A stretch of 64,000 nucleotides of DNA from Pontibacter sp. HSC-14F20 (GTDB lineage: Bacteria > Bacteroidota > Bacteroidia > Cytophagales > Hymenobacteraceae), in NCBI RefSeq assembly GCF_019599265.1, contig NZ_JAHZTC010000011.1, forward strand, positions 1 to 64,000. The letters run 5' to 3'. This document shows, one piece after another, positions 11,114 to 31,129 of this stretch (its first letter is position 1; each line of letters starts with the position of its first letter). The notes beneath the pieces are model-generated. The model saw only the letters and a program-made list of their open reading frames with translations, was not told the DNA's origin and searched no databases. The position numbers were made by a program, and so were the translations under genes.

Positions 11114-11171
11114 GTGAACTATAGAAACCAAAATAAAACGAGAGGTATACCTCTCCCTAAAATAGAGACAG

Positions 11172-12575
11172 ATGAAATACGATGTTACAGTAATCGGTTC
11201 TGGTCCTGGCGGGTATGTGGCGGCTATACGCTGCGCACAACTGGGCCTGAAAACTGCTATTATAGAGAAATACAATGTGCTGGGCGGTACTTGCCTAAAT
11301 GTGGGCTGTATACCTTCTAAGGCACTGCTTGATTCATCAGAGCATTACCACAACGCGGCGCATACCTTTAAGGAGCACGGTATTGAGCTGAATGACCTAC
11401 AGGTGAACATTGAGCAGATGATCAACCGCAAGGCTGGCGTGGTGAAGTCGAATAACGACGGCATTGCCTTCCTAATGAAGAAAAACAAAATCGATACCTA
11501 CTACGGTATGGGTTCTTTTGTGAACAAGAACACCATCAAAATAGCAGGTACAGACGGTCAGGAGCAGCAGATCGAGACAGACAAAACTATTATCGCAACA
11601 GGTTCTAAGCCAACTTCGCTTCCTTTCCTACCGATTGACAAGAAGCGCATCATTACCTCTACAGAAGCTTTGGAACTGAAAGAGGTACCGAAGAAAATGA
11701 TCGTGATCGGTGGTGGTGTGATTGGTTTGGAGCTGGGTTCTGTGTATGCTCGCCTGGGTACGAAAGTGCAGGTGATTGAATATATGGACGCCATCATCCC
11801 GACCATGGACCGAGCGTTGGGTAAAGAGCTGCAGCGTGTGCTTAAGAAAACATTGGGCTTCGAGTTCTTCTTCAACCACAAAGTAACCGGCGCTACCAAC
11901 GGAGGCGAAACAGTAACTGTGACGGCTGAGAACCCGAAAGGCGAAACCGTGACCTTTGACGGTGACTACGTGCTGGTATCGGTGGGCCGTAAGCCTTATA
12001 CCGAAGGACTTGGTTTGGAGAATGCCGGTGTACAGATGGGTGAGCGTGGCATGATTGCCGTAAACGACCACCTGGAAACCAATGTACCGGGTATCTACGC
12101 GATCGGTGATGTGGTGCGTGGCGCGATGCTGGCCCACAAAGCTGAAGAAGAAGGCGTGTTCGTGGCAGAGACCATCGTAGGCCAGAAGCCGCACATCAAC
12201 TACAACCTGATCCCGGGTGTGGTGTATACCTGGCCGGAAGTGGCGGGCGTAGGTTATACCGAGGAGCAGCTGAAAGAGCAGGGCCGTACCTATAAAACAG
12301 GTTCCTTCCCGTTCAAAGCTTCAGGTCGTGCCAAGGCGTCGATGGATACGGACGGTTTCGTTAAAGTGCTGGCCGACAAGGAAACAGACGAGATCCTGGG
12401 TATGCACATGATCGGCCCACGTATAGCTGACCTGATTGCAGAGGCAGTCGTGGCGATGGAATTCCGAGCTTCGGCAGAGGATATTTCCCGCATGAGCCAT
12501 GCACACCCAACGTATACGGAGGCCATCAAAGAGGCTTGCCTGGCAGCGACAGAAAACCGCGCCCTGCATATCTAG
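11172..12575 (+). CDS. lpdA: Dihydrolipoyl dehydrogenase (E3)
   Basis: FAD-dependent enzyme that reoxidises dihydrolipoyl groups with NAD+, shared by 2-oxo acid dehydrogenase complexes. Visible features: the N-terminal FAD dinucleotide fold VIGSGPGGYVAA (8-19), the redox disulfide GGTCLNVGCIPSK (Cys41, Cys46), the NAD fold VIGGGVIGLELGSV, the second FAD motif GIYAIGDVVRGAMLAHKAEE, and the C-terminal dimer/active-site segment SHAHPTYTEAIKE. Length 467 is normal. Placement after odhB suggests it serves the 2-oxoglutarate dehydrogenase complex, though it probably also serves others. A hairpin and a likely terminator precede it, and a clear terminator follows. Confidence 0.96.
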   Translation: MKYDVTVIGSGPGGYVAAIRCAQLGLKTAIIEKYNVLGGTCLNVGCIPSKALLDSSEHYHNAAHTFKEHGIELNDLQVNIEQMINRKAGVVKSNNDGIAFLMKKNKIDTYYGMGSFVNKNTIKIAGTDGQEQQIETDKTIIATGSKPTSLPFLPIDKKRIITSTEALELKEVPKKMIVIGGGVIGLELGSVYARLGTKVQVIEYMDAIIPTMDRALGKELQRVLKKTLGFEFFFNHKVTGATNGGETVTVTAENPKGETVTFDGDYVLVSVGRKPYTEGLGLENAGVQMGERGMIAVNDHLETNVPGIYAIGDVVRGAMLAHKAEEEGVFVAETIVGQKPHINYNLIPGVVYTWPEVAGVGYTEEQLKEQGRTYKTGSFPFKASGRAKASMDTDGFVKVLADKETDEILGMHMIGPRIADLIAEAVVAMEFRASAEDISRMSHAHPTYTEAIKEACLAATENRALHI

Positions 12576-27021: not shown

Positions 27022-27567
27022 CTATCGGGGAGTAGTGCCCATAGTTGTCGTTCCAGTTGTAGTGCCTGTGGTAGTACCAGTAGTAGTGCCTGTGGTTGTG
27101 CCTGTGGTTGTGCCTGTAGTCGTACCAGTTGTAGTTCCGGTAGTCGTACCAGTTGTAGTTCCGGTAGTCGTACCAGTTGTAGTTCCGGTAGTCGTACCAG
27201 TTGTAGTTCCGGTAGTCGTACCAGTAGTAGTTCCGGTAGTCGTACCAGTAGTAGTTCCGGTAGTCGTACCAGTAGTAGTTCCGGTAGTCGTACCAGTTGT
27301 TGTTCCAGTCGTCGTTCCAGTTGTAGTACCTGTGGTCGTACCAGTAGTAGTGCCAGTCGTAGTTCCGGTAGTCGTTCCAGTTGTAGTACCTGTCGTTGTC
27401 CCGGTCGTTGTCCCGGTAGTTGAGCCCGTAGTTGTTGTACCAGTAGTTGTACCATTCATATCGGTATCTGTTGCATCAGTACCGGTGGTAGTGGTATCTG
27501 CACAACCGGTCATTACCGTTGCTGCTACAAACGATAGCGCAAGCATGTTTACAAATGTCTTTTTCAT
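27022..27567 (-). CDS. Lipoprotein of TTTG tandem repeats
   Basis: 181 residues. The signal MKKTFVNMLALSFVAATVMT, then GC, gives a lipobox with Cys22. After a short DTTTTGTDATDTDMN segment, nearly all the rest is the tetrapeptide TTTG repeated about 30 times, ending TMGTTPR. The protein would be an extended Thr/Gly chain on the envelope, a likely candidate for O-glycosylation, which is an inference. The DNA repeat is 12 bases, with a 24-base higher-order period. Copy number could vary by slippage without a frame change. Two overlapping open frames over the same DNA are repeat artefacts. Confidence 0.7.
   Translation of the reverse strand: MKKTFVNMLALSFVAATVMTGCADTTTTGTDATDTDMNGTTTGTTTTGSTTGTTTGTTTGTTTGTTTGTTTGTTTGTTTGTTTGTTTGTTTGTTTGTTTGTTTGTTTGTTTGTTTGTTTGTTTGTTTGTTTGTTTGTTTGTTTGTTTGTTTGTTTGTTTGTTTGTTTGTTTGTTTMGTTPR
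27048..27445. repeat. 12-bp tandem repeat (minisatellite)
   Basis: About 30 copies of a 12-base unit, in two alternating forms on the plus strand (GTTCCGGTAGTC and GTACCAGTTGTA), giving near-perfect 24-base periodicity over about 27115-27300. The unit length keeps the coding frame open in several frames. The flanks of the array are more degenerate. Confidence 0.9.
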
Positions 27568-30159: not shown

Positions 30160-30465
30160 GGTTGTATAGGTTAGATTATACCTTGTGTACGTATCGGGCG
30201 TGCAAGGTTTGTGTATACCGTGTGTTAGCGTATCGTGTTGCTTCATTTCTATGGTATTATTCAATAAATGCACCGCAGTCAATGCGTCAGGTATACAGCA
30301 TAGGTATGGGCCATAACAACCTTATCAGCCACCAAGAATCTCTTTTTTGCGCCTTGTTTAGAACGCTTATCGGAGAGAATATTATTCAGGTATGTAAAAA
30401 AGTATTGGCTTTATGTAAAATATATTTTACTTTTAGTAAATAGAATCGTACATATAATAAAAACT
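30160..30465. other. Divergent regulatory region before the membrane protein/XRE pair
   Basis: Contains AGGTATA words and, at its right end, the GTAAAA-based operator-like array at 30394-30440. No ORF of note. Confidence 0.5.
30394..30440. promoter_or_regulatory. Operator-like array: 16-bp palindrome and three GTAAA half-sites
   Basis: GTAAAATATATTTTAC at 30415-30430 is a perfect 16-base palindrome. The half-site GTAAA(A) occurs at 30394, 30415 and 30436, exactly 21 bases (two helical turns) apart. It lies 26 bases before the membrane protein start codon and ahead of the co-encoded XRE regulator, where an autoregulatory operator is expected. Confidence 0.6.
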
Positions 30466-30939
30466 ATGAAAGAGATGTTGCCACAAGTAAAACTGCTGCC
30501 ACACAGGTATAAGCGCTATGGTATTTTAGTGCTCATTGTCGGTATACCCCTCATGATGCTGCTAACCCTCGCGCTCATTGGGCTAGGTATAGTGACAGAC
30601 ACAAAAACTTTTTTCACAGAATGGAATAACCCAATGGTTTATTACCCTATCATTATCGGACTGGCGCTGCTTAATTTCTCACAAGAAAAGGAAGAAGATG
30701 AAATGGTGCGGCATCTGCGCTACCAGGCGTTTATGAACGGTGTTTTCTACCTGATAATCGGTATCCTGATGCTTCCTTTATTTTACAACGCATTTAGGCT
30801 ACTGCGAGGCGCGACTATTGAGATGCCTGATATCGGCGGAATGTTAGGGGCGCTTATGCTGCTGCTTATTTATACCTATGGCTCTTTCAGGTATAAGCTA
30901 CACCAAACCCGAAAAGCCCTCGAAGCTGATGCGGAATAA
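30466..30939 (+). CDS. Membrane protein coupled to an XRE regulator
   Basis: 157 residues with four hydrophobic segments (about 20-43, 60-70, 90-107 and 125-140). No family is recognised, though small membrane proteins are often encoded with a small helix-turn-helix regulator in this arrangement. Its stop codon overlaps the start of the XRE gene by 11 bases, which strongly suggests translational coupling. A palindromic array sits upstream. It may be controlled by, or sense for, the partner regulator; this is inference. Confidence 0.75.
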   Translation: MKEMLPQVKLLPHRYKRYGILVLIVGIPLMMLLTLALIGLGIVTDTKTFFTEWNNPMVYYPIIIGLALLNFSQEKEEDEMVRHLRYQAFMNGVFYLIIGILMLPLFYNAFRLLRGATIEMPDIGGMLGALMLLLIYTYGSFRYKLHQTRKALEADAE

Positions 30940-31129
30940 CATTAAGGTAGAGCGGGCTAAAAAAGATATGACGCAGGAGCAGCTGGCTGAAGCCCTGGGC
31001 GTCACCCGGCAGACCATCAATGCCATCGAGAAAAATAAATACCTGCCTTCCACCTTGCTCGCCCTTAAAATGTCGAACCTGTTTGGCCTGACCGTAAATG
31101 AGCTTTTTGTGCTCGAGGAGGGCGATTAA
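30929..31129 (+). CDS. XRE-family helix-turn-helix regulator
   Basis: The ATG at 30929 gives 66 residues: MRNNIKVERAKKDMTQEQLA, then EALGVTRQTINAIEKNKY and LPSTLLALKMSNLFGLTVNE. This is a complete, minimal Xre/Cro DNA-binding domain, with the recognition helix in VTRQTINAIE. It starts inside the last codons of the membrane protein gene (11-base overlap). Small regulators of this form usually repress their own operon; the palindrome at 30415-30430 is the obvious candidate site. Confidence 0.88.
   Translation: MRNNIKVERAKKDMTQEQLAEALGVTRQTINAIEKNKYLPSTLLALKMSNLFGLTVNELFVLEEGD

Follow-up and report, generated by a model that had tools for sequence, protein, structure and literature searches.

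In Pontibacter sp. HSC-14F20, the genes for a small membrane protein and a 66-aa XRE protein overlap, and three predicted 16-bp operator sites lie upstream of them in exact 21-bp steps. The presence of these sites, their spacing, their conservation and their overlap with candidate promoter elements are established here by sequence comparison. We strongly infer that the XRE protein binds the sites directly, and since the same or a matched site stands at related pairs in bacteria and archaea, self-regulation by the 66-aa protein is very likely. An initial annotation of this DNA proposed autoregulation through a phased operator. Comparison with relatives strongly supports this: the site recurs, its step is 20/21 bp, it goes with the XRE gene, and it changes in concert with the recognition helix.

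Predicted operator array and promoter of the gene pair

Within the window (the whole 64,000-nucleotide stretch analyzed), the pair (Table 1) sits between minus-strand genes upstream, encoding an acyltransferase and proteins without a family, and carB downstream. The two genes overlap by 11 bases, as initially annotated. carB also lies 3' of the pair in 10/10 named Pontibacter loci, and the ten nearest relatives of the XRE protein in the species collection are all from Pontibacter. In Pontibacter arcticus (L008, 1500-2020) the membrane-protein gene shifts frame, and in P. lucknowensis (L009, 1500-2020) it is reduced to a remnant; in both, the XRE gene is retained beside carB. Elsewhere in the window, a minus-strand ORF (27022-27567) encodes a short, lipoprotein-like product whose main part is a long amino-acid repeat of the TTTG type, encoded by a tandem array of 15 copies of a 24-bp unit (27047-27405).

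Table 1. Features of the membrane-protein/XRE locus, in window positions
Feature	Position	Strand	Basis or remark
Predicted operator site 1, GTAAAAAAGTATTGGC	30394-30409	+	8/10 match to GTAAAN6TTTAC
Candidate -33 element, ATTG	30404-30407	+	One mismatch; inside right arm of site 1
Predicted operator site 2, GTAAAATATATTTTAC, perfect palindrome	30415-30430	+	10/10 match to GTAAAN6TTTAC
Candidate -7 element, TACTTTTA	30428-30435	+	One mismatch to TAnnTTTG; TAC common with site 2
Predicted operator site 3, GTAAATAGAATCGTAC	30436-30451	+	8/10 match to GTAAAN6TTTAC; over the predicted transcription start, whose position is inferred
157-aa membrane protein gene	30466-30939	+	ORF and translation
66-aa XRE (HTH_3) protein gene, CylR2 kind, recognition helix TRQTINAIE	30929-31129	+	ORF; domain and PDB sequence search

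The central site, already described as a perfect 16-bp palindrome, ends 35 bases before the ATG of the membrane-protein gene and has no exact copies elsewhere in the genome. The window holds only one other perfect 16-bp palindrome, GAGAGGTATACCTCTC (11140-11155), which stands 16 bases 5' of an ORF (11172-12575) resembling dihydrolipoamide dehydrogenase. The three GTAAA half-sites of the initial annotation were found at its positions and in exact 21-bp steps; they form the sole such triple in the window when both strands are scanned. The annotation requires correction in one respect, as each half-site forms the left arm of a whole 16-bp site, and the outer two sites are imperfect. When the 150 bp upstream were shuffled 5000 times with dinucleotides preserved, neither three GTAAA at 21 bp nor an equally good triple was obtained (0/5000), and a single site matching the centre site in quality arose in 6.

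According to excerpts from PMC7366714, the Bacteroidota promoter consensus has TTTG near -33 and TAnnTTTG at -7, and the same excerpts report that the -33 element was not found in Flavobacterium johnsoniae. Both candidate elements of the window share bases with the operator sites and are separated by a gap of 20 nt; aligned Pontibacter relatives have TTTGC at the position of ATTG in site 1. This register recurs among the Bacteroidota promoters described below. At 51/163 sites, TTTG completes a -7 box with the TAC of the operator, against 0 to 6 at each other tested offset, and in 38/81 promoters an operator arm supplies part of an exact -7 box. TTG lies 18-22 nt upstream in 31 of the 52 promoters having TAnnTTTR. 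A scan for promoters of the E. coli type yielded nothing useful. In archaea, a site of 9/10 was found at 30/41 loci, and in 17 of these 30 a TATA-like word starts 12-15 bp 5' of the site, with single cases at -26, -31 and -33. The sites lie on both promoter elements and the predicted start, and in archaea next to TATA; these positions fit repression by occlusion and suggest that the operon would be repressed.

Conservation of the sites and their link to the XRE gene

Profile searches with the membrane protein matched 44/395 Bacteroidota genomes and 59/200 genomes of the own family, and 108 loci were examined. Six were set aside before counting because of a broken gene, a wrong start or a downstream copy (L008, L099, L101, L112, L166 and L171), 13 were at first classed as XRE-less, and removal of similar sequences from the remaining 89 left 81 non-redundant promoters of XRE-containing pairs, 48 of them from the own family. 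This count leaves out L182 and some weaker profile matches, and the named Pontibacter loci are represented in it by duplicates. A site of at least 8/10 was present in 78/81 promoters (shuffle mean, 18.9), and two such sites spaced 20/21 bp in 52/81 (shuffle mean, 0.12; maximum, 1). The half-site spacing, whose loss upstream of homologous operons had been named beforehand as the outcome that would speak against the proposal, is therefore conserved. With the threshold raised to 9/10, 46 pairs were spaced 20 or 21 bp, and all other distances up to 39 bp together accounted for one. Counted by taxon label, the pair occurred in 10/16 and a site of 9/10 in 14/16, the labels being a mixture of named taxa and anonymous family numbers that may overlap. 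The strict pair was absent from the Prevotellaceae, Bacteroidales, f8, f11, f12 and f24 rows of the 81-promoter set.

Reinspection of the 13 loci first taken as XRE-less revealed one with a broken frame and tandem membrane genes (L109) and three (L103, L169 and L180) at which an XRE gene with the variant helix SRQSI or SRQAI had been missed; at these three the sites are present too. Nine membrane-protein homologues have no adjoining XRE gene (L105, L106, L111, L113, L170 and L173-L176). A site pair at 8/10 was found at 0/9 of them, and a single 8/10 site in two. Loci with XRE only, such as L034, retain good sites. Since site presence follows the XRE gene, with no pair at any of the nine XRE-less homologues, the sites belong to XRE. 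Downstream of the membrane-protein gene of four XRE-less loci (L170, L174, L175 and L176) lies a gene for a lipoprotein-like protein of ∼222 aa with a GGDPTPMG-like or similar motif.

The genome of strain HSC-14F20 itself carries a second membrane-protein/XRE pair, found by profile (L144; contig 76:92800-95300). Similar sites, again 20/21 bp from one to the next, stand upstream of it, and cross-talk between this paralog and the window pair may occur, judging from the likeness of their arrays. Genome-wide, GTAAAN{15,16}GTAAA had 35 matches, compared with 39 in the reversed control, and GTAAAN6TTTAC occurred at 4 places, compared with 6; as these counts are no higher than the control, no regulon is visible. 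Inspection covered 35 loci among the own-genome matches (L083-L085 and L184-L215). There, the best pair scored 18/20 at the window and 16 each at the contig 76 paralog, L205 and L189, and the best triples scored 26 (window), 24 (paralog), 22 (L205) and 20 (L189) of 30. Of the loci inspected, the window promoter and the paralog promoter thus have the best arrays. L205 falls within an open reading frame and L189 between ORFs resembling nuoA and nuoB, and we read both as chance occurrences; another match, L192, is likewise located in an open reading frame.

Related pairs in archaea and other phyla

Outside the Bacteroidota, 58 loci were chosen by XRE similarity, a selection which favors the same recognition helix, and up to 1.5 kb upstream was scored. 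A site of at least 9/10 was present at 37/58 (shuffle expectation, 3.85) and a 20/21-bp pair at 12/58 (shuffle expectation, 0.0). Archaea, Chloroflexi, Proteobacteria and Clostridia all include related pairs preceded by the same site. The 20/21-bp pairs include those of Methanosarcina, Methanolobus, a gammaproteobacterial locus from the Halieaceae (L039) and a locus of Ornatilinea (Chloroflexi; L074), which has four sites in succession. In Clostridia the 21-bp steps are lacking; the two sites there flank the promoter, at a distance of 45-47 bp from each other. At several ANME loci no site was found near the gene, and in some of these another gene seems to precede it.

A second set was chosen by the membrane-protein family PF09946 (DUF2178) in the phylum of a Methanosarcina genome, where 101/246 genomes matched; Methanosarcina acetivorans and Haloferax volcanii are among the species with PF09946 proteins. 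Scoring covered 28/32 loci, after removal of three duplicates (L216-L218) and one broken locus (L247). The GTAAA type of site scored higher in 18/19 loci with the helix TRQTI, compared with 0/9 loci with RRETI on single sites and one on pairs. Instead, 7/9 RRETI loci had GTTAG..CTAAC pairs at 20/21 bp, which 0/40 shuffles matched; the remaining two, L231 and L240, seemingly lie downstream of another gene. The association of helix with half-site gave Fisher P values of 1.4e-6 (single sites) and 2.5e-5 (pairs), uncorrected for relatedness. At the level of sequence, recognition helix (RRETI versus TRQTI) and half-site (GTTAG versus GTAAA) thus change together in the archaeal DUF2178 pairs, and the layout stays the same. 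The GTAAA site of 9/10 was absent from four Halobacterial loci (L063, L064, L069 and L076) despite their TRQTI helix core, and at three loci with TRQTILAIE (L230, L236 and L244) a good pair of neither the GTAAA nor the GTTAG type was found. TRQTI loci without GTAAA sites indicate that the helix core alone is insufficient to fix the site. Upstream of the four Halobacterial genes, another palindrome, about GGAAAGGATACCTTCC, was noticed by eye.

The two proteins and proposed control of the operon

The XRE protein matched HTH_3 (PF01381) with 58.4 bits (cutoff, 23). Its best PDB match was 9k3w, a "PbsX family" regulator (E = 2.1e-14), for which we recognized no paper in the open-licence literature searched. 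The membrane protein gave no Pfam or NCBIfam match above cutoff, and no solved relative was found by sequence. Defense and phage libraries contained no match for it and returned only general HTH matches for XRE. In an alignment of 17 sequences, P12, F71, E77, D78, E79 and R85 were invariant. Sequence and structure model point to four transmembrane segments with both ends inside, and the conserved charged EDE...R loop between the second and third segments is predicted to face the cytoplasm. The model, with a mean pLDDT of 78.5 (medium confidence; the other four models, 55-59), had no PDB fold match at E 0.001. Compared with the archaeal DUF2178 pairs, the window pair has the same gene order, 16-bp site and 21-bp step. 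The membrane protein itself had no PF09946 hit at E 0.1; its profile aligned with that of DUF2178 in the region of the DE motif (hhalign probability 78%, E 1.8e-5, in one comparison over 73 columns), which hints at a distant link.

The pair had been described as not in any named system, a statement that is half right. Among the nearest solved relatives of the window XRE is CylR2 of Enterococcus faecalis (PDB 1utx), likewise a 66-aa XRE protein (phmmer E = 4.5e-12, residues 3-60), and CylR1/CylR2 is a described membrane-protein/XRE pair. In excerpts from PMC3709268, CylR1 is a suspected membrane protein needed for induction, CylR2 binds the promoter, and the two are proposed as a possible novel two-component system without a phosphorelay. 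As in the window, a small membrane protein is encoded in the operon of the XRE gene, and the position of the repressor at overlapping promoters, as given in these excerpts, can be counted as a further likeness. However, CylR1 is described with three transmembrane helices, compared with the four predicted here, and CylR1/CylR2 controls a divergent lantibiotic operon, whereas no such operon lies at the window locus, where carB is downstream. A second parallel is VanU of the vanG operon. Excerpts from PMC4405338 describe it as a small XRE autorepressor with two adjacent imperfect palindromes over its own promoter and a footprint that covers -35 and reaches +10 with more protein. Its partner genes encode a two-component system, unlike the small membrane protein of the window. 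We recognized no paper on the operator or on the DUF2178 pairs in the open-licence literature searched, and prior work may exist. What is new is the operator, which is conserved, phased and in register with the promoter, and whose half-site changes with the recognition helix; operons of this type are already known in outline.

We lean towards a reading in which the two genes form one operon under its own XRE repressor, which would act by occluding the promoter; the membrane protein is the likely signal partner. XRE dimers would occupy all three 16-bp sites, perhaps cooperatively, from the same face of the helix, each site being two turns from the next. Bound XRE would block both promoter elements (-33 and -7) as well as the transcription start, and so keep both genes low. 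The membrane protein, mainly by analogy with CylR1/CylR2, may sense a change in the membrane or the arrival of a ligand and hold or release XRE in response, and repression of the operon would be lifted. The two Pontibacter loci that keep XRE beside a broken or remnant membrane-protein gene count against this reading, as do the Halobacterial, TRQTILAIE and Clostridial exceptions. The same XRE autorepressor could be relieved by another cue, the membrane protein being only a controlled product, for instance in membrane stress or immunity, that makes no contact with XRE. Homologues of the membrane protein at nine loci without any XRE, its lack of a clear family and the good sites kept at XRE-only loci such as L034 would all fit. 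This seems to us rather unlikely, given the close, usually overlapping pairing of the two genes across phyla and domains and the precedent of CylR1/CylR2, whose membrane protein is required for induction in the excerpts from PMC3709268.

It is improbable that XRE instead activates the operon, or activates and represses it according to the site filled, as in a phage-type switch. The three sites are unequal, with the best in the middle, as such a switch might have them, but in the window and in many relatives they lie over the core promoter and start, where repressors typically bind. Some toxin-antitoxin operons place the toxin first and are autoregulated by an XRE protein. A membrane toxin with an XRE antitoxin is still a very improbable description of the pair, since the nine homologues stand without XRE, the membrane protein matches no toxin family, and the fixed place by carB in all named Pontibacter loci is unlike that of a mobile addiction module. 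Lastly, the upstream region is AT rich and a single perfect site did arise in a few shuffles, but the view that the repeats are chance features of such a promoter is refuted by the Bacteroidota counts and by conservation and spacing across phyla, and we give it practically no credence.

Beyond this operon, we tentatively propose one common operator code, in which a 16-bp site recurs every two helical turns. It would be kept for one membrane-protein/XRE module in Bacteria and Archaea and locked to the core promoter of each domain (-33/-7 or TATA), and clades would change helix and half-site together. If this is true, one repressor design serves two basal transcription machines that differ greatly. 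A common, almost unstudied gene pair gains a predicted operator, repressor and partner; natural helix/half-site pairs become available for the study of recognition change, and membrane-to-promoter signaling without a kinase becomes directly testable in laboratory strains of bacteria and archaea.
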